Shown piece after piece: positions 38,161 through 48,822 of a stretch of 64,000 nucleotides of DNA. The position numbers and the translations under genes were made by a program. The notes under the pieces were generated by a model that worked only from the letters and a program-made list of their open reading frames with translations, made no database searches and was not told the DNA's origin. Positions within the stretch are counted from its first letter, which is position 1, and each line of letters starts with the position of its first letter. The stretch lies in NCBI GenBank assembly GCA_024639765.1, contig JAHEHU010000002.1, positions 1 to 64,000 on the forward strand, read 5' to 3'. The stretch comes from Eudoraea sp. (GTDB lineage Bacteria; Bacteroidota; Bacteroidia; Flavobacteriales; Flavobacteriaceae).

Positions 38161-39924
38161 TTGGAATCAAAAAACCTACTTAGCCATATATCCGAATTAG
38201 AAGCAGCCCTTAACAGTTTCTCTTTTGAAGAATTAAACACTGCCGATGCAGCTCAACTCAAACAATCCTTTGACCAATTTAAAATTAATCTAGAGGAAAG
38301 GATCTGGGGACCTGAACAAAAAAATATTGAGACTACTTCCCAAAATCGAGAGAATGCCAGATCCAGTACTTCGGTTACAGCAGAACAGGCCAGGCATATC
38401 ACCAATATAATCCACAAGTTTGACTCGCCTTTAAACGAGATCGCCTGCTTTTCAGAGCTATTAAAAGAAGGCACGTTGAGTACTTTACAAAAAGAACAGC
38501 TGTATGCCATACAACTGGCATCAAGATCCCTGATGGATCTCCTCAATGACTTCTTAGAGTATTCAAAACTCTTAGCCGGTATGGAGGAATTCAATATGGT
38601 GCCCTTTCATATTCACAACCTCATCAAAGAAGTTGCGTTTTTAAGTAAGACGTTGATTGTGGATAAAAATATCTCCTTTGAAGTAAGACTGGACTCAGAT
38701 ATTCCGTCAAATTTGCTGGGAGACCCTTCGAAACTATCTGAGGTTCTTCTAAGTCTTTTAGGCAACACCATTAAATTCACTGACACGGGAAGTATATTGT
38801 TTAGTACGCACGTAATAGCACTTCACAATAACCAGTGTTCCATAGAATTTATCATAAAGCATACGGCAAACTGTAAGGCCGAAGAAGATCCCAGGCAAAT
38901 CTACCATGTATTTCAGCAAGCAGACCAACATACTTTTACTAAGTACGACAGTGCCGAATCTGGATTAATCATTGTAAAACAGATCGTTGACAAACTTGGC
39001 GGTACAATTTCCATACAAAATCAGCAGAAGGAGGGAACAGAGTTGTCAATGATCCTGGATTTTCCCTTGCTTAAAAAACAAACTATAGAAATGAAAGCAA
39101 ATAAGCAATTAAACAAGAAATCTGTTGATACGTTAAAGGTCCTCGTTTTTGAGGATAATGCCCTTAATCAATGGCTTATAAAAAAACGACTTAAGAGCTG
39201 GGGATGTACATTTTTTATTACCGAACATGCGGTAGAAGGGTTGCAAATATTGGAAGAGGAGATGATAGATGTTGTATTTATGGACCTGCATATGCCAGTG
39301 GTAGATGGCTACGAAATTACCAGACGCATACGGATCAATGAACAAGAGAGAATAGCACAAGTGCCCGTAATTGCCCTAACAGCTGATTTTACAGCCAAGG
39401 ATAAGGATAAAGCAAGCAGGGATGGCATCAATGATTTTATCTTAAAACCATACACGGCTGAGGAACTCCTGGACAAATTGATCCAATACGGATTTTCGAA
39501 CCAGGGGTCAACAATATTTCAAGGGACTGTGAAGGATGACGCGGACCTGCGTCCTAATACGGATGGGTTTACCAAACTCAATCTGAGCGCCGTTTTGGAA
39601 GATTGCATGGGAGAAGTAGAGATGCTGGCGGAACTGGTAGAATTGTACAAAAGGAATGCCCTCGAATTCATTGGTAAAGCCAAGCTGCACCTCCAAAACC
39701 GGGACCTGGAACAATTGCAATTTGCAACCCATAAGATAAAAGCAGGATTGGCGATGATGAAAACCCAGAACCTGCTCATCCTGGTACAACAATTACACGG
39801 GCTTTGCAGTACTGACAAGAATTACGACCAAATGAACTATCTGTATCAACAGTTTGTTAAGGAATATTCATTGGTAGAATTTGCCTTAGACGCTGAAGTA
39901 ACCAGATTAAAGAAAGAGAATTAA
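38161..39924 (+). CDS. cytosolic hybrid histidine kinase-like protein (HisKA, degenerate HATPase, REC, Hpt)
   Basis: H-box IHKFDSPLNEI, REC (FEDN...DLHMP...LKPY), Hpt ATHKIKAGLAMMK; canonical ATP-lid glycine motifs missing. Confidence 0.85.
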   Translation: MESKNLLSHISELEAALNSFSFEELNTADAAQLKQSFDQFKINLEERIWGPEQKNIETTSQNRENARSSTSVTAEQARHITNIIHKFDSPLNEIACFSELLKEGTLSTLQKEQLYAIQLASRSLMDLLNDFLEYSKLLAGMEEFNMVPFHIHNLIKEVAFLSKTLIVDKNISFEVRLDSDIPSNLLGDPSKLSEVLLSLLGNTIKFTDTGSILFSTHVIALHNNQCSIEFIIKHTANCKAEEDPRQIYHVFQQADQHTFTKYDSAESGLIIVKQIVDKLGGTISIQNQQKEGTELSMILDFPLLKKQTIEMKANKQLNKKSVDTLKVLVFEDNALNQWLIKKRLKSWGCTFFITEHAVEGLQILEEEMIDVVFMDLHMPVVDGYEITRRIRINEQERIAQVPVIALTADFTAKDKDKASRDGINDFILKPYTAEELLDKLIQYGFSNQGSTIFQGTVKDDADLRPNTDGFTKLNLSAVLEDCMGEVEMLAELVELYKRNALEFIGKAKLHLQNRDLEQLQFATHKIKAGLAMMKTQNLLILVQQLHGLCSTDKNYDQMNYLYQQFVKEYSLVEFALDAEVTRLKKEN

Positions 39925-39937
39925 ACCCAAACGGATC

Positions 39938-40303
39938 ATGAAAAAGATATTATTGGCAGATGATGATGAATTATTGGCTTCTTTGCTCAACTACCGTTTA
40001 GACAAGGCAGGGTACAAGGTGCATTGGTCCTGTGATGGCAGGGAAGTGAAAGAGGAATTGGAGAAAGAGATACCAGACATCATCGTAAGTGATATTATGA
40101 TGCCTTATTTCTCTGGCCTGGAACTGGTCGATTTTGTAAGGAATACCTTAGAATCAAAGGTGCCAATAATCATAATCTCTTCAGCAGGTAATGAAGAGAA
40201 TGTGCTTTCTGCCTTCGAATTAGGGGCAAATGATTTTATCTCAAAACCCGTGAGTCCATCAGAATTATTAGTACGTGTAACAAGAGAATTAAACAAGGGC
40301 TAG
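39938..40303 (+). CDS. single-domain response regulator
   Basis: ILLADDDELL, VSDIMMP, SKPVSP. Confidence 0.93.
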   Translation: MKKILLADDDELLASLLNYRLDKAGYKVHWSCDGREVKEELEKEIPDIIVSDIMMPYFSGLELVDFVRNTLESKVPIIIISSAGNEENVLSAFELGANDFISKPVSPSELLVRVTRELNKG

Positions 40304-40306
40304 TTA

Positions 40307-42466
40307 TTGATTAGAATAGCATTAACATACCAATCATTTACACTCATAAGTGTTCCAAAGATCCACACGGATCTTTTGTGGGATCTTAGTGTCTTGTTTG
40401 GAAGTTTGTGTTTGCTCTATTTTGCTTTTATATTTTTCTTCAGAAACCGCTTGTCTGCAAAAGCAAAGAACATTAATGATCGCAGGAAACAATTAACCCC
40501 TATCATTAGTAATTTTCTCTTTTATGGCGAAGATGCCAGTAAGGAAGAAAAGTACGAATACGTAGAATTAAAGGTGGAAATGAGGGAGTTTATTAAAGAC
40601 CCCATCAATCGCAGCGTTCTCAAAGAAATCTTGCTGGATCTTCAACGCGACCTTACCGGGGACGCCAGACGACGTTTACTTTCCCTTTATCAGGATTTCG
40701 ATTTACATCTGGATGCCTATCAAAAATTAAATAGCTGGCGCTGGGAGGTTGTTACCAAGGGCATTGTGGAGTTGACCCAGATGCAGGTAGAACAGGCCTA
40801 TACTTTTATCAAGAATTTTATTAATCATAAAAGAAGTGTGATACGTAAACAGGCGCAGATTGCTGCTGTTTCATTAAAACACGAAGGAATCTCCCACTTT
40901 TTGGATACGAACAAATATGCTATTTCAGAATGGCAGCAAATCAAAATATTGGAAATTCTCCGCGATAAGGAAGATTTCATCCCTCCTAATTTTGGAGCCT
41001 GGCTTACATCAAAGAATAAAGATGTGGTGCTCTTCTCACTTAGACTTATTCGTCATTACAATCAGACAGATGCTAATTGTTTAGTAACTGAGCTTTTAAA
41101 ACACAAGGATGATGAAGTTAAGCAGGCCGCTATTGAGTGTATTAAAGAGTTTGGTATTAAAGAAGCTGTTCCGGTTTTAAAGGCAGCATTCAGAAGATCA
41201 AACCGGGCAACCAAAATAGTGATCTTAGATGCTCTGGGAATATTATGCTCAGATGACATTATCCCATATTTGTTTGAGATTTATGAACATGAGAATAATT
41301 TCAATATAAAGAGTAAAGCATTGAGTACCATCAATGTGATAAGTCCAAATACAGTGCTACCTGAGGAGAATTTGGATCCTTCTATTAAAATAGCTGAGGA
41401 GATGCAGGTTGATGAAGAGGTAAGGGACGTTGAAAATCCCGGTGAAATTGATAAAAATGAGATAGTACCACCCCATGAAACAGTAGAAGAAAAAGTAGTG
41501 ATCACGGAAGAGGCAAGCGAATTATTCCTGGAAGATCTTGATGTTTTTGAGTATTGTTTTATGGAAGAGCTGAATGAGATCCTGGACCGTTCAGATATTG
41601 AGGATAATGATATAGAGGCTAAATATTTACCGCTGGATTTCTTACCCATCGTAGTTCAAAAACAACCTAAAATGGCAAAAAAGAAACAAAAAAAGACGTT
41701 AGACCCAGAGCTTACACAATTAGATGTTCGTTTTGAAGAGGTACATCCCGATGAAGGCTTTAGAAGAGAGCTAGAGGATATTCTTAGCAGGGTAGAGGTC
41801 CCGGACCTGGAGGGCAACATCGAAGTAGAATACCTGAATTTTAAATTTCTACCATTCGTAATCAGCGAGGAGGCGGAAGCGGATCAATTACCGGCCTTAA
41901 TCGATGAGATAAATGCCATGGAGGTGAATGGAGTAGAAATCGTCTTGCCTGCATCTGGCGAAGCACTAGATACAAATGAGGCAGAAAAAATAGCTGACAA
42001 AGATCATCAAGAAGAAGAAAATGACACTTGTTCTTTGGTAGACTGGGATGATCTTGAGACCGAAGTAGACGCCATAGCGACAAAAAGCATCGAGAAGCAT
42101 ACTAAGGAAGAAAACATTGAAGAAAGCGATCCTCCTTCTTATGGCTTTAGCATATTCGAAGAACTTTTCCGCCATTGTGATACAGAATCTAAACTTATTT
42201 TGTTAGATGAGATCTTAGACCTTGGCGATGAGAAAGAACTGTGTTTTCTTCAAACCTTATTCAAAGATCCTAACCGTGATGTGCGGAAAAAGGTAAAAAA
42301 TATTGCAAAAAGGCTTACTGAAAAACTAGCTGTTGAACAAACAGCTAATCATACACCAGAGGCCATTGTAAAATGGGCAGATACTGAAAAAAACGGCCGG
42401 TCACTTTCTTTGAATTTTGATCTGGAGAACCTTGAAATTAAAAATGTAAACGACACCAAGAAGTAA
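40307..42466 (+). CDS. membrane-anchored HEAT-repeat protein with acidic linker repeats
   Basis: N-terminal TM; HEAT-like helices (HKDDEVKQAAIECIKEFGIKEAVPVLKAAF); exact start uncertain. Confidence 0.8.
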   Translation: MIRIALTYQSFTLISVPKIHTDLLWDLSVLFGSLCLLYFAFIFFFRNRLSAKAKNINDRRKQLTPIISNFLFYGEDASKEEKYEYVELKVEMREFIKDPINRSVLKEILLDLQRDLTGDARRRLLSLYQDFDLHLDAYQKLNSWRWEVVTKGIVELTQMQVEQAYTFIKNFINHKRSVIRKQAQIAAVSLKHEGISHFLDTNKYAISEWQQIKILEILRDKEDFIPPNFGAWLTSKNKDVVLFSLRLIRHYNQTDANCLVTELLKHKDDEVKQAAIECIKEFGIKEAVPVLKAAFRRSNRATKIVILDALGILCSDDIIPYLFEIYEHENNFNIKSKALSTINVISPNTVLPEENLDPSIKIAEEMQVDEEVRDVENPGEIDKNEIVPPHETVEEKVVITEEASELFLEDLDVFEYCFMEELNEILDRSDIEDNDIEAKYLPLDFLPIVVQKQPKMAKKKQKKTLDPELTQLDVRFEEVHPDEGFRRELEDILSRVEVPDLEGNIEVEYLNFKFLPFVISEEAEADQLPALIDEINAMEVNGVEIVLPASGEALDTNEAEKIADKDHQEEENDTCSLVDWDDLETEVDAIATKSIEKHTKEENIEESDPPSYGFSIFEELFRHCDTESKLILLDEILDLGDEKELCFLQTLFKDPNRDVRKKVKNIAKRLTEKLAVEQTANHTPEAIVKWADTEKNGRSLSLNFDLENLEIKNVNDTKK

Positions 42467-43893
42467 TGGACGGCGGCCTATTCAACATATTGTTAGAATA
42501 TTTGAACATCGTGTTTATGGTGTTCTCGGCCGTATTATTTGCGCTGTACTTCCTTATGGCCTACCTCGCAACCCGTAATTCTATTCATTATAAGAATAAA
42601 AATAGTTTTGGAGATATTTCAAAAACCATGGGGTCACCCTTATCTCCAAGCATAACCATTATTGCACCCGCCTACAATGAAGGCCTAACCATCGTTGAGA
42701 ATGTAAGATCGCTGCTTTCCCTGCAGTATGTGAATTATGAGGTGATGGTGGTGAATGATGGAAGCAAGGATGACACCCTGCAGAAATTGATTGAAGGGTA
42801 TAAACTCGAAAAGATCGATAGAAAGATAGATCCGAAAATAAAGTCGAAACCCATTAGAGGCATCTATAAATCCACACAACGTTCATTCTCTAAACTTACT
42901 GTAGTAGACAAGAGTAATGGCGGTAAGTCAGACGCCCTCAACGCGGGGATCTTTTTATCTGAGAATAAATACGTTGGATGTATAGATGTGGATTGTCTAA
43001 TACAACCCGATGCACTCTTGCATGTGGTAAAATCTTTTTACCAACACTCGGAAAAAAGGGTGATAGCAGTGGGAGGGGTCATAAGAGTAGCCAATTCCTG
43101 TAAAATATCCGGAGGGACACTTGAAGAGATACGATTACCGAAAAATTGGCTGGCAAAATTCCAATTATTGGAATATACCCGTTCTTTTTTATTGGGCCGA
43201 ATGGCGTGGGCAAGAATAGATAGTCTTTTGATCATTTCTGGCGCCTTTGGTTTTTTTGACCGGGAAATTGCAGTGGAAGTGGGAGGCTATGACACCAATA
43301 CAGTAGGGGAGGATATGGAGATCATCTTCAGGATGAGACGACATATGCATGATATAGAAGCACCTTATCATGTTGCCTATATCCCGGATCCGCTTTGTTG
43401 GACAGAAGTTCCTGAAGACATAAAAATATTTATGAATCAGCGGGATAGATGGTCCAGAGGAAATCTGGAAACGCTCTATACACATAAGGATATGTTCTTT
43501 AACCCCAAGTACGGAAGGCTTGGCATGTTAAGTTACCCCTATTGGTTCTTTTATGAATGGCTTGCCCCTATCCTGGAATTCTTGGGAAGCATTGCGGTTA
43601 TCGTAGTTTTTTATTTAGGGATTTTAAATTGGGAGTTTTTTGTTGCCATTACGGCCACTATTTATACGTTTTCTATCATGTTCTCATTTTATGCAATACT
43701 ATGGGAGACATACTCCTATAATCAGTATTCCAAAACGCGTGACATATTAACACTCATGTTATTTGCGATCATTGAGCCCATCGTTTTTCATCCCATAGTT
43801 GTATGGTCATCAGTAAGAGGAAATTACAAGAAATTATTTAAGATAAAATCTGGATGGGGTTCCCAGGTACGAAAAGGATTTGCCAAGGCATAA
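42466..43893 (+). CDS. processive family 2 glycosyltransferase (PgaC/IcaA-like)
   Basis: IIAPAYNEG, DVD, GED and QRDRW motifs with C-terminal TMs. Confidence 0.92.
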   Translation: MDGGLFNILLEYLNIVFMVFSAVLFALYFLMAYLATRNSIHYKNKNSFGDISKTMGSPLSPSITIIAPAYNEGLTIVENVRSLLSLQYVNYEVMVVNDGSKDDTLQKLIEGYKLEKIDRKIDPKIKSKPIRGIYKSTQRSFSKLTVVDKSNGGKSDALNAGIFLSENKYVGCIDVDCLIQPDALLHVVKSFYQHSEKRVIAVGGVIRVANSCKISGGTLEEIRLPKNWLAKFQLLEYTRSFLLGRMAWARIDSLLIISGAFGFFDREIAVEVGGYDTNTVGEDMEIIFRMRRHMHDIEAPYHVAYIPDPLCWTEVPEDIKIFMNQRDRWSRGNLETLYTHKDMFFNPKYGRLGMLSYPYWFFYEWLAPILEFLGSIAVIVVFYLGILNWEFFVAITATIYTFSIMFSFYAILWETYSYNQYSKTRDILTLMLFAIIEPIVFHPIVVWSSVRGNYKKLFKIKSGWGSQVRKGFAKA

Positions 43894-43896
43894 AGT

Positions 43897-46272
43897 ATGC
43901 AAGTAGATATTAACATAGGATCAAAAAGAAAGGGGCTTAAAGACTTTACACGCCTTGTATTGTCTTTTTTCTTTTGTCTGGTCTGCCTGGCCTTTTATCA
44001 AAATACCCGGCTGTACTGGTCTGGTGTATTAGATGGCATTATTAACAAGAGCTTTTTTCTTTTGGTTATCCACCATCTTGGGTTTGCCGCATTAAGCGCC
44101 TTATTTCTTGCATTTTTATTCAACTTTTTGGAACGAATTAAACCAGATCTTGGATTTAAGACCATTGCAATGATCTTATTGATCTTGCTGGTGTCCGAAG
44201 GCTTGCTAACAAACTACTATGTATCGTACTATGAGATTTTAGGAGTAGGGGTTATTGACAGGATCCAAAACAATGATGCGGTGAAAGTCCTTTATGCCAC
44301 GCCCATTGTTATGTTAGGATGTAGCCTTCTTTTGTTTCTGTTCTATAGGCTCACAACTAATATATATAGATTGATCAATAGGATGTACCCGTTCACCATC
44401 ATCCTTTTCAGTCTTTTCCTGGCCACTCTGATCTCTCGTAAAAACCCCATAAATGAAAATAAAACCCAATATCTGGTGTATCATCAGGCACAGAGCTTTT
44501 TAGACTTTAATAAATATGAAGGAAGTGTTGAATATCCTCTATTAAAAGAGCTTGATCCTCCAAATGAGCTGGCAGATTATTTTACTCTTGGCACAAAAAA
44601 ACCAAATTTGGTCTTTATTGTGATCGATGGTGCAGGTTCAGATTTTGTAGGGGAAAAAGCCGTCTACAAAGAGTTTATGCCCTACTTAAACTCCTTATTA
44701 AATGAATCATTGTATTGGCCTCATTTTCTGAGTAATACAGGAGAATCTGTGGCGAGTATTCCATCAATTATCGGATCCTTGCCTTTTGGAGAAAGTGGTT
44801 TTACCAACACTGCGTCCAAGATTAACAGAGAGACCCTTTTTGGACTACTGAAGAATAACGGATACCAAACCTCTTTTAATTATGGGGGAAATAGTTCTTT
44901 AGACAACTTAGGGAAATTCTTATTTGAAGAACAGGTAGATCTATTGGTGAGCAGAAAGGCATATGGCCCTTCATTTTCACAACAAGAGCCCGATGCAGCT
45001 GGCATTTCTTTGGGTTATCCGGACGGGGAATTATTTCGAAAGTGGAATGAGGATTTTCAGAGCACCTATCGTCCAAGACTGGACGTATTTCTTACGTTAA
45101 GTACAAAGAATCCATTCAATATTCCAGAAGATGAGAAATACAGAAGTGAGGTTGAGAATATCCTTAACTCGGAAGGGTTGACAAGCAGGAATAGAAGGCT
45201 GATCAAAAAGAATGATGAGATCTTTGCCAGTTTATTATATGCAGATGAGGCTATCAAAACATTTATGGAACAGTACAGGCGTAAGGCCGAATTTCAAAAT
45301 ACCATTTTTGTGATCACCGGAAGCCATAATCTTACCGATTTGCCACAAACAGATTATCTGGGAAGATATAAGGTACCTCTCATCATCTATAGCCCTCTCT
45401 TAAAAGAACCTGCACGTATTGGTTCCCTGGTGGCTCATACAGATATACTGCCTTCAATAACAGGTTTACTGTATTCTAAGTATGATCTGGCAATTCCAAA
45501 GAACGTTTCATGGTTGGGTGATGGCCTCGTTCACCAGGGCTTTTTTAAAGAAGAGAAAATTATTCCCTTATATAGACACAAGGGAAATATTCAGGAATTT
45601 ATTGAAGGAAATCACTGTGTGTCTGGGTCCTCTTTATATGAGATTGGGGCAGACCTCAGCTTATTCAACCCAAAAAACGAGGACAATGAAAAAAAGATCA
45701 AGGAGGAATTCAAAAGGTTTAAAGCAATTAATAGCTATGTAACCAGGGAGAATAAATTACTGCCGGGAGCAATGGACGAAAAAATAGCACTTGAGGATCC
45801 CGAAAGTAAATCAGATATGGTCTGGATCAATAGTGTATTCAACAGTGATGATTACGATAAGGCATACACTACTGCACGCGATCTTGCTATAGAAGGAAAA
45901 AGGGAACGCGCACTTCTTCTATGCGAGCATATATTAGAAGAGGTTCCCGGACATGCCGATACGGAAATACTCATGGGGCGTATTCATGCATGGAATAAAG
46001 AATATACTCAAGCGGCAACTATTTTGGAAAAAACTATAAAGAAATACCCCGTATATGCGGATGGGTATTCGGCCCTTCTTGACGTCTATTTTTGGGCAGA
46101 CACAAATTACAAAGTAGCCGATGTGAAAGCTTTGATACGCAAGAATCGTATTGAGAATGAAGAGCTGCTCTTGAAGATCAAAAGAGCGGAAGAAAAAATG
46201 AAAAAAGAACAGACATTGTTTGACAGTGGTAATTTAGGCTTCCTCGACTTTGAAGATGATATATATGAGTGA
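43897..46272 (+). CDS. LtaS/sulfatase-superfamily membrane protein with C-terminal TPR-like region
   Basis: N-terminal TMs, NLVFIVIDG...YGGNSSLDNLGKF...YKVPLIIYSP, then TPR-like ERALLLCEHILEEVPGHADTEILMGRIHAWNKEYTQA. Confidence 0.85.
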   Translation: MQVDINIGSKRKGLKDFTRLVLSFFFCLVCLAFYQNTRLYWSGVLDGIINKSFFLLVIHHLGFAALSALFLAFLFNFLERIKPDLGFKTIAMILLILLVSEGLLTNYYVSYYEILGVGVIDRIQNNDAVKVLYATPIVMLGCSLLLFLFYRLTTNIYRLINRMYPFTIILFSLFLATLISRKNPINENKTQYLVYHQAQSFLDFNKYEGSVEYPLLKELDPPNELADYFTLGTKKPNLVFIVIDGAGSDFVGEKAVYKEFMPYLNSLLNESLYWPHFLSNTGESVASIPSIIGSLPFGESGFTNTASKINRETLFGLLKNNGYQTSFNYGGNSSLDNLGKFLFEEQVDLLVSRKAYGPSFSQQEPDAAGISLGYPDGELFRKWNEDFQSTYRPRLDVFLTLSTKNPFNIPEDEKYRSEVENILNSEGLTSRNRRLIKKNDEIFASLLYADEAIKTFMEQYRRKAEFQNTIFVITGSHNLTDLPQTDYLGRYKVPLIIYSPLLKEPARIGSLVAHTDILPSITGLLYSKYDLAIPKNVSWLGDGLVHQGFFKEEKIIPLYRHKGNIQEFIEGNHCVSGSSLYEIGADLSLFNPKNEDNEKKIKEEFKRFKAINSYVTRENKLLPGAMDEKIALEDPESKSDMVWINSVFNSDDYDKAYTTARDLAIEGKRERALLLCEHILEEVPGHADTEILMGRIHAWNKEYTQAATILEKTIKKYPVYADGYSALLDVYFWADTNYKVADVKALIRKNRIENEELLLKIKRAEEKMKKEQTLFDSGNLGFLDFEDDIYE

Positions 46273-47509
46273 TCTAAAGAATATTTTAAAGTATATGTTC
46301 CATGGATTACTTCTATGTGGTTTTCCATTGCTAATGTTCGCTCAGGAAAGCGAATATACAGGAGATCCTGATGCATCACTAAAGCGTGCCATGACGCTTG
46401 CTTTTGACGGGAACAGGGAGGAAGCCAGGGATACCCTCACCAACATATTATCGGCCTATCCCGAGTACACTGATGTTCGCACCCTGTTGGCAAAGACTTA
46501 TAGCTGGGATGGAAATTACGAGGAGGCACGAAAGCAATTTAATCGAATCACCTCTGAAGAAAGGCAGCATACAGAAGTTTGGATTGCCGCAATACGGAAT
46601 GAGGTATTTGCTGAAAACTATTATTTGGCACTGGGATTGGCGAATAAGGCATTGTTGTATTTGCCCCAGGAAGAATCTCTGATACAGCTTAGAAGTGAAA
46701 TCCTAAAGGACCTGCAAGGTATTGCCGAATCATCTTCAGCAACCGGCATGGAGGATAAGAAAGCAGAAGAAAAAAAGTATAAAAATACCATTGCACTTTT
46801 TAGTTCCACGGATGTTTTCGATGTTGTCTACGATCCTATGTTTTACTCGGGTATCGAATACATACACGAGACCTCAATTGGGAAGATCATCCCCAGAATT
46901 AATTACAGTAATAGATTTGATATAGACGGGCTTCAATATGAATTAGATCTATACCCTAAATTCTCAAAATCATTGTACGCCTACTTGAATTATGGCTATA
47001 GTCAATCTGAGATTTATCCAACCCATAGAGTTGGGGGGGACCTGTACGCCAATCTGCCAAAAGGCATTGAAGCGTCTCTTGGAGCCAGATATTTATCCTT
47101 TACCGAGAGTGACGTTGCTATTTACACAGGGTCCATAGGAGTATACAGAGGAAATTACTATCTATCGTTACGCCCCTATATTACTCCACGGAGAAATAGC
47201 ACGACCGGTATTTCCGGCATCCTCATTGCTCGTAAATATCTGAAAGACGCTAATAATTTTATTGGATTTTCAGGAGGGATGGGCTTTATGCCAGAATTCC
47301 GACAGTATCTGGCCAATAGCGTATTAATAGCGGAAACGGTATTGTTCGTAGAGTCGCAACAAGTAATGTTGGAATATCAATTCTCATTTAAAAACAATCC
47401 TTCCCTGTATAGGGCCAATCTGGGAATTACCCGGCAAGAACTTGTTTTTGCTACCGGAAACTATTTTTACGCAGTGTCTGCAGGCTTACGATACCAGGTG
47501 CGTTTTTGA
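46250..47509 (+). CDS. YaiO-family outer-membrane beta-barrel protein with N-terminal TPR-like region
   Basis: Signal peptide, TPR-like N-terminus, aromatic beta-strand C-terminus ending YQVRF. Confidence 0.88.
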   Translation: MKMIYMSDLKNILKYMFHGLLLCGFPLLMFAQESEYTGDPDASLKRAMTLAFDGNREEARDTLTNILSAYPEYTDVRTLLAKTYSWDGNYEEARKQFNRITSEERQHTEVWIAAIRNEVFAENYYLALGLANKALLYLPQEESLIQLRSEILKDLQGIAESSSATGMEDKKAEEKKYKNTIALFSSTDVFDVVYDPMFYSGIEYIHETSIGKIIPRINYSNRFDIDGLQYELDLYPKFSKSLYAYLNYGYSQSEIYPTHRVGGDLYANLPKGIEASLGARYLSFTESDVAIYTGSIGVYRGNYYLSLRPYITPRRNSTTGISGILIARKYLKDANNFIGFSGGMGFMPEFRQYLANSVLIAETVLFVESQQVMLEYQFSFKNNPSLYRANLGITRQELVFATGNYFYAVSAGLRYQVRF

Positions 47510-47652
47510 TTTGACAATAACTACCTCATAAAATGCGTTATATACAACAACTATTTACTAATACACCACAAACTATTGTTGTAAAAAGAAAGAAAATATA
47601 TGTTTACTAAGTAATGAATGAGTCCCAAGTCTCATTAAAAAACCAAACCACC

Positions 47653-47751
47653 ATGTTATACGATACCTACGGTGAGGAGTATTTAAATTTCCTCAAGGAT
47701 TTAAATGAAATTCTAAGTATTAACGAATTAGCCGAACTAGATTACCTATAG
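47653..47751 (+). CDS. micropeptide 1: MLYDTYGEEYLNFLKDLNEILSINELAELDYL
   Basis: 32-aa ORF; paralogous to the next micropeptide (YLNFxxDLNEIL). Confidence 0.7.
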   Translation: MLYDTYGEEYLNFLKDLNEILSINELAELDYL

Positions 47752-47783
47752 ATCTGTCGGTTAAACTGAAAAACCCTATAATT

Positions 47784-47885
47784 ATGGCAAATCCAAATTA
47801 TGACAACGCTGCGTATTTAAACTTCATAGAAGATTTAAATGAAATTTTAAAAGATTTTGAGATCAGCAGACTAAGCTGCTCTTAA
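47784..47885 (+). CDS. micropeptide 2: MANPNYDNAAYLNFIEDLNEILKDFEISRLSCS
   Basis: 33-aa ORF, 32 nt after micropeptide 1, followed by a strong terminator. Confidence 0.7.
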   Translation: MANPNYDNAAYLNFIEDLNEILKDFEISRLSCS

Positions 47886-47909: not shown

Positions 47910-47939
47910 AGAAAAGGGAGCCAATTGGCTCCCTTTTCT
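47910..47939. terminator. bidirectional terminator AGAAAAGGGAGCC-AATT-GGCTCCCTTTTCT
   Basis: 13-bp perfect inverted repeat between convergent micropeptide and rpoD units. Confidence 0.9.
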
Positions 47940-47958: not shown

Positions 47959-48822
47959 TTATCCCAAATATGCTTTGAGAAGTTTACTACGGGTATTATG
48001 CCTGAGTTTGCGAATGGCTTTTTCGCGAATTTGGCGCACCCGCTCTCTGGTTAGATCAAAGGTCTGTCCTATTTCTGCAAGTGTCATAGATTGTTGATCG
48101 CCTATGCCATAATACAATTTAACAACATCGGCCTCCCGAGGGGATAAAGTGTCTAGCGCCCTGTTGATCTCAGTATTAAGAGACTGTCGCATTAGGCCTT
48201 TATCGGGCTTCGGAGATTCTCCGGAACGCATTACATCATATAGGTTAGAATCCTCACCTTCTTTTAATGGAGCATCCATTGAAACATGACGCCCTGCATT
48301 CTTCATGGATTGCTTTACCTCACTAACGGTCATATCCAGTTCCTGGGCGATCTCTTCCGCAGAAGGTGGTCTTTCATGTGATTGTTCTAAATATGAAAAC
48401 GCCTTTTTTATTTTATTGATAGATCCAATTTTGTTCAAAGGCAGGCGTACTACCCTTGATTGTTCTGCCAACGCCTGTAAAATAGACTGACGGATCCACC
48501 AAACGGCATAAGAAATAAATTTAAACCCTCTGGTCTCATCAAAGCGTTTTGCAGCCTTTACAAGACCAACATTTCCTTCGTTAATAAGATCCGGGAGGGT
48601 AAGTCCCTGATTTTGATATTGCTTTGCTACAGAAACCACAAACCTCAAATTTGCATTTGTCAATTTCTCCAGCGCTAATTGATCTCCAGCTCTTATTCGC
48701 TGGGCTAATTCTACTTCTTCATTAGCAGTGATCAAATCTATTTTACTGATATCCTGCAAGTACTTATCCAAGGATTTTGATTCTCTGTTGGTGACCTGCT
48801 TGATTATCTTTAGTTGCCTCAT
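47959..48822 (-). CDS. rpoD: primary sigma factor RpoD/SigA (short Bacteroidota form)
   Basis: [68 protein letters not shown], region 4 HTH. Confidence 0.96.

Follow-up and report, generated by a model that had tools for sequence, protein, structure and literature searches.

Sda of Bacillus subtilis, a 46-aa histidine kinase inhibitor, docks on KinA (PMC7430163), and MgrB, at 47 aa, inhibits the histidine kinase PhoQ in a feedback regulation (PMC8404706, PMC10576120). In LytTR regulons such as that of AgrA, a dimeric regulator recognises a pair of direct repeats immediately ahead of the promoter (PMC4227749), while the FopS sRNAs of the RbpB network in Bacteroides are multicopy, paralogous sRNAs with a conserved common segment (PMC11697453). 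Here, in a window of 64,000 nucleotides from Eudoraea sp. (Flavobacteriaceae), we describe a strongly conserved, uncharacterised pair of micropeptides, A and B, in an unusual regulatory context, with a partial likeness to each of these systems. Our main reading, to which we give a probability of roughly 0.38, is that A and B are LytTR-controlled amphipathic-helix peptides that dock on an adjacent HK/HPt-HEAT module and so tune surface polysaccharide.

Peptide A (32 aa, MLYDTYGEEYLNFLKDLNEILSINELAELDYL; 47653..47751, plus strand) and peptide B (33 aa, MANPNYDNAAYLNFIEDLNEILKDFEISRLSCS; 47784..47885, plus strand) lie 32 nt apart, and an earlier note on this DNA had placed both reading frames correctly and to the letter. 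Its location and sequence for A stand, and only the start of the conserved product had to be fixed: the mechanical ORF begins at ATG 47614 and spans 45 aa, whereas in several relatives the open frame of A comprises 33-34 codons and opens only one or two codons before the equivalent of ATG 47653, which we thus take as the conserved start. Both start codons in the window are preceded by A at -3 and -6, a favourable context in Flavobacterium (PMC6847099). The note had also proposed selection at the protein level, and the homologous loci bear this out, with pN/pS of 0.089 for A and 0.24 for B; because synonymous sites are saturated in both genes (pS about 0.85), the true ratios must be lower still. 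Diversity at codon positions 1, 2 and 3 is 0.15/0.04/0.46 in A and 0.26/0.17/0.49 in B, so that third positions vary most. Homologous ORFs occur in tens of genera and keep their frames free of breaks, the start of B in two uncultured Eudoraea genomes (L063, and L066 near 10097) being the exception; there, a deletion has taken the spacer together with B's start and left A intact, which could be a real loss or an error of assembly in a repeat. Annotation often passes over genes of this length. Short ORFs are common, and the gene track behind the earlier note annotated none here, but the pN/pS values, the codon-position pattern, the position of the start codon and the conservation in tens of genera leave a negligible chance that A and B are spurious ORFs or a chance repeat. 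Judged from these sequence comparisons, A and B are protein-coding microprotein genes under purifying selection. They hardly change across a large marine group and belong to no known family, and so are almost certainly genuine small proteins that have yet to be studied.

Of 400 sampled Flavobacteriaceae genomes, 75 have a strong match (E < 1e-11) to a profile of peptide A, and order-wide and phylum-wide genome draws gave no convincing match beyond this family. A pattern search of a species-level collection returned 245 A loci, the best 80 of which include Muriicola, Eudoraea, Robiginitalea, Maribacter, Arenibacter, Cellulophaga, Flagellimonas and Allomuricauda. B follows A at a spacing of 19-46 nt in 76 of the 78 named loci of sufficient reach. 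The two peptides score 61 against each other in an ungapped BLOSUM62 alignment, a value that none of 5000 shuffles attains (mean 20, maximum 49), and the paralogy that the note had read from a common core is thereby upheld. That A can occur without B is shown by five genomes with a solo A in other neighbourhoods (G029, G282, G089, G109 and G320), about 41-72% identical to the A of the window. Three of these fall outside the A/B clade in a helicase tree whose deeper branches are weak. Given these lineages, A is probably older than B, and B is most simply a duplicate of A.

The conserved residues of A would lie on one face of a helix. Positions 3, 6, 10, 13, 17, 20 and 24 are invariant or nearly so, in the 3-4 spacing of a heptad (Y-x2-Y-x3-Y-x2-F-x3-L-x2-I), and their mean entropy is 0.08 bit versus 0.80 elsewhere in the peptide; B has a weaker version of the same spacing. 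AlphaFold2 models A as one helix over residues 2-31 (mean pLDDT 75), a result that, for a single 32-aa peptide, informs on little more than helix propensity. Both peptides are acidic, with net charges of -9 to -1, and have no membrane segment. The resemblance of their heptads, together with apparent co-transcription throughout the A/B clade, would suit a heteromeric coiled-coil pair in which each peptide is the other's main partner and the cellular target is unrelated. We regard this as improbable, because A is kept in the solo-A lineages and in the two Eudoraea genomes with a broken B. The note had recognised no family, and our searches agree: Pfam and NCBIfam gave no match for A and for B only Exo70_N at E 0.098, under the curated cut-off; the A profile against PDB chains gave nothing at E < 1, the best being an unrelated chain at E 1.4; a phage search matched neither peptide, and we reject a phage origin on this ground; and neither peptide string was found in the open-access literature. 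Type I toxins are out, as the peptides are acidic and lack a long hydrophobic run, and so is a leader peptide or attenuator, as a terminator follows B and the next gene, rpoD, is convergent.

At most A/B loci, the pair stands at the end of a usual order of genes, running from a hybrid histidine kinase through a response regulator, a HEAT protein, a PgaC-like glycosyltransferase, a sulfatase/TPR protein and YaiO to A, B and the convergent rpoD. In the window, this order consists, on the plus strand, of a hybrid histidine kinase with a receiver and a C-terminal HPt domain (38161..39924; Pfam HisKA, HATPase_c, Response_reg and a weak Hpt), a stand-alone response regulator (39938..40303; Pfam Response_reg and synteny), a HEAT-repeat protein with a C-terminal extension (40307..42466) and, assigned by family matches, polysaccharide genes for the PgaC-like glycosyltransferase, a sulfatase-TPR protein and a YaiO outer-membrane protein (42466..47509); the rpoD-family sigma factor, identified by synteny and family match, lies on the minus strand at 47959..48822. 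The polysaccharide genes have been lost at least four times independently (in Flagellimonas/Allomuricauda, Arenibacter, Robiginitalea SC105 and a Cellulophaga relative), and A and B were kept each time. They are thus dispensable for A/B, and a role bound strictly to the polysaccharide enzymes is rejected, as A and B outlive them. For each of these losses, at least some members retain a kinase/HPt remnant and a HEAT-like remnant directly upstream, usually the HPt domain of the kinase and the C-terminal part of the HEAT protein. In Flagellimonas/Allomuricauda, the sole kinase remnant is a pseudo-HPt protein of about 140-270 aa; in Arenibacter, only a diverged HEAT-like protein is left, with at most 33% identity in the matching parts, a point against our main reading. 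A model of the mini-HEAT remnant shows a small helical repeat with a disordered tail, and a fold search of the PDB with this model found weak helical-repeat matches only, none at E < 1.

The remnants suggest that the kinase's HPt domain and the HEAT protein are candidate partners of the peptides. Across 75 aligned loci, the HPt histidine is H in 54, Q in 19, R in one and G in one, and it is replaced mainly where the operon is gone, by Q in Flagellimonas/Allomuricauda and in G082, by R in Robiginitalea SC105 and by G in G257. Such replacements, mostly by Gln, are seen at loci L076-L133, L159 and L162, in several lineages without the polysaccharide operon. The full-length HEAT protein with its C-terminal extension occurs in 63 genomes, all of which carry A, and in none of the 325 genomes without A, a co-occurrence whose Fisher value of 1e-61 is inflated by shared ancestry; it may be one event on the tree, and its statistical weight is limited accordingly. 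Four genomes without A that we inspected have, between a homologous regulator and a homologous glycosyltransferase, a HEAT protein of about 370 aa without the extension, and three of them also carry the sulfatase and YaiO genes. The acidic linker of the HEAT protein (41500-42000 in the window, and its homologues) repeats a motif such as LPLDFLPIV or LNFKFLPFV, a possible docking motif. A string in the window's HEAT protein that resembles the peptide core, YCFMEELNEILDRSDI, we judge a coincidence, since it is kept only in HEAT proteins of the Muriicola/Eudoraea type. Among the solo-A genomes, G089 has a hybrid kinase with HPt directly upstream of A; the other four, and the A/B genome G404, yielded no homologue of that HPt domain genome-wide, so HPt cannot be the sole partner.

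These same observations bear on the idea that the peptides' target is part of the general housekeeping machinery, such as RNA polymerase or a sigma factor, the ribosome or another widely conserved machine, and that their position between the operon and rpoD reflects nothing but inherited synteny. A matches the neighbouring RpoD in conservation, whereas its upstream neighbours are mostly 40-60% identical; it is kept in genomes without HPt, HEAT extension or polysaccharide genes; and rpoD adjoins nearly all A/B loci, including one (L158) from which everything upstream has gone. Yet A does not adjoin rpoD in the solo-A genomes G029, G282, G109 and G320, the HEAT extension is absent wherever A is absent, and the HPt and HEAT remnants would have to be a coincidence in each of the losses. 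We consider a housekeeping partner somewhat unlikely, and prefer docking on the HK/HPt-HEAT module.

Upstream of A, the promoter-like TTG (47576-47578) and TATGTTTA (47599-47606) that the note had pointed to are present on the plus strand (47576..47606), in an arrangement kept in most relatives; the element is of the type of the Bacteroidota housekeeping sigma factor, whose consensus is TAnnTTTG (PMC9723704). The hairpin that the note had seen after B is likewise there, as a perfect 30-nt palindrome, AGAAAAGGGAGCCAATTGGCTCCCTTTTCT (47910..47939, plus strand), with a strong predicted fold in the downstream region. A consensus terminator scanner did not flag this palindrome. By a simple rule, a hairpin and T-run follow B in 49 of 73 relatives. 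The -33 element is closely preceded by a pair of half-sites of the form [CT]AC[AC]ACA, TACAACA-N14-CACCACA (47543..47570, plus strand), a putative LytTR-type activator site. Upstream of the box in relatives' promoters, 69 of 74 counted start-to-start distances between half-sites are 21 nt. The exact combined motif occurs once in its own genome. The 21-nt direct-repeat pattern occurs 118 times versus 22 for a reversed control in 12 A/B genomes, 17 versus 1 in two solo-A genomes, and 6 versus 5 in four genomes without A; the promoters of the solo-A genes themselves lack the repeat, which counts against our main reading.

The assignment to LytTR comes from a second locus of the Eudoraea genome, where the 21-nt pattern separates a LytTR response regulator (Pfam E 9e-18) from its TPR kinase (L223, on G000:C90, box at 2229). 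Four other genomes carry sites of this kind ahead of related TPR proteins (L228, L235, L243 and L248), and the sites probably reflect autoregulation of that system. With direct repeats about two helical turns apart, upstream of a promoter and common to a LytTR locus, A/B have the sequence features of a LytTR regulon, and we infer LytTR control of the pair from them. The same pattern precedes other genes. Two paralogous 42-aa membrane micropeptides, MEKYTEKHPILNSILTVLNVSLEVILALIALGFIIGLYGLLN and MESNSNKHPILNTILSVLNISLEVLLALIALGFLIGLWGILS, lie behind it in the Eudoraea genome (G000 C159:108045, L191, and C23:56, L187), with relatives in two genomes of the genus (L238 and L262) and no Pfam match over cut-off. 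In several genomes it also stands before LRR proteins of about 300 aa and secreted proteins (L188, L192, L239, L245, L251, L260, L261 and L263), which are candidate members of a regulon.

The transcript leader carries a motif of its own, CCCAAA, in 55 of 78 A/B leaders versus 14 of 892 upstream regions of long ORFs. In the window, its CCCAA lies in the loop of a hairpin, AATGAG-TCCCAAGT-CTCATT (47617..47636, plus strand). The hairpin is confined to part of the lineages: Flagellimonas lacks it, and in Maribacter it is weak or missing. CCCAAA-like motifs also precede the solo-A genes. CCC(A/C)AA is found in 31 of 76 A-B spacers versus 6.2 expected, a count of little weight alone since the reversed motif reaches 30. 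Behind other 21-nt sites are tandem transcripts, terminator-ended and without long ORFs, in which CCCAA occurs 39 times versus 4.9 expected. These predicted transcripts of about 300 nt (L224, L225, L226, L227, L232 and L259 in Flavobacteriaceae genomes, and L229/L230 in G320) each have the direct-repeat promoter and a terminator, and mostly one to three CCCAA, which often sit in hairpin loops; their appearance is that of a family of sponge or seed sRNAs. Rfam gave only sub-threshold noise for the A/B leader and the tandem sRNAs, nothing near gathering score. A covarying leader structure was rejected, the motif being widespread and the hairpin lineage-restricted, with no two-sided compensatory change in the sRNA alignment.

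It is conceivable that the A/B transcript is a dual-function regulatory RNA, with the CCCAAA leader, and the spacer motifs, as its primary activity and the peptides as a secondary product. The tandem non-coding transcripts have the same 21-nt promoter and CCCAAA hairpin loops, and the motif recurs in solo-A leaders and, with the caveat of its reversed form, in the spacers. Against this, A is conserved at the amino-acid level with its synonymous sites saturated, so the peptide itself is strongly selected, and the hairpin is patchy among lineages. We find such an RNA quite unlikely to be the main function. A broader version of our reading would make the A/B mRNA the coding member of an undescribed network of marine Flavobacteriaceae. 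A LytTR regulator would activate tandem CCCAAA-hairpin sRNAs and membrane micropeptides along with A/B, and the two peptides would represent a novel type of helical pair, docking on a (pseudo-)HPt-HEAT module independently of phosphotransfer. Taken as a whole, this is an unlikely proposal.

Returning to docking on the kinase-HEAT module, A and B are probably regulators attached to a surface-polysaccharide signalling pathway. A LytTR-type regulator on the two half-sites would switch on a transcript of about 300 nt, as their conservation and the sites at the LytTR-kinase locus suggest, and CCCAAA in its leader may place it under the same post-transcriptional control as the tandem non-coding RNAs. 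From this one short, independently transcribed mRNA, two paralogous cytosolic micropeptides would be translated, for which selection argues strongly. Each may fold as an amphipathic helix with a fixed face, as the residue pattern and a low-confidence model indicate, and this face would dock on a partner that is itself helical; the likeliest are the HPt/DHp bundle of the adjacent hybrid kinase, the C-terminal repeats of the HEAT protein, or both. Docking would tune the relay, and hence surface polysaccharide output; where the polysaccharide genes and phosphotransfer have been lost, a phosphorylation-independent HPt-HEAT-A-B remnant would stay. The earlier note's reading is supported overall, but it missed this wider context: that the pair is linked to the HK/HPt-HEAT operon, that its promoter bears direct repeats 21 nt apart and that its leader carries CCCAAA. 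The locus matters because A, though so short, is conserved like the adjoining housekeeping sigma factor across widespread marine bacteria, and because its promoter and leader motifs point to an undescribed LytTR-sRNA network. The function of the pair, once tested, could define a new class of small signalling protein and offer a handle on the control of surface polysaccharide in Flavobacteriaceae.

By the tests made here, A and B are not members of the Sda or MgrB families, and the parallels are ones of design. MgrB, like the role proposed for A/B, is a small protein that regulates a histidine kinase, but it is a membrane protein, in contrast to the acidic A and B. The FopS sRNAs resemble the tandem transcripts in their multiple paralogous copies and common segment; no CCCAA motif is named for them in PMC11697453, whereas here the motif is common to sRNAs and the mRNA of a peptide pair, together with a 21-nt direct-repeat promoter. 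The AgrA arrangement resembles that of 47543-47570, whose half-sites are putatively of LytTR type. Sda is a tiny helical protein whose hydrophobic helix face sits on a kinase's helical-bundle signalling domain, and a similar docking may be envisaged for A. Sda is a helical hairpin, whereas A is modelled as a single helix, has a paralogue on the same mRNA and has no PDB sequence match at E < 1, so membership of the Sda family does not follow; by analogy, A and B may nonetheless work like a small kinase-binding protein of this kind.
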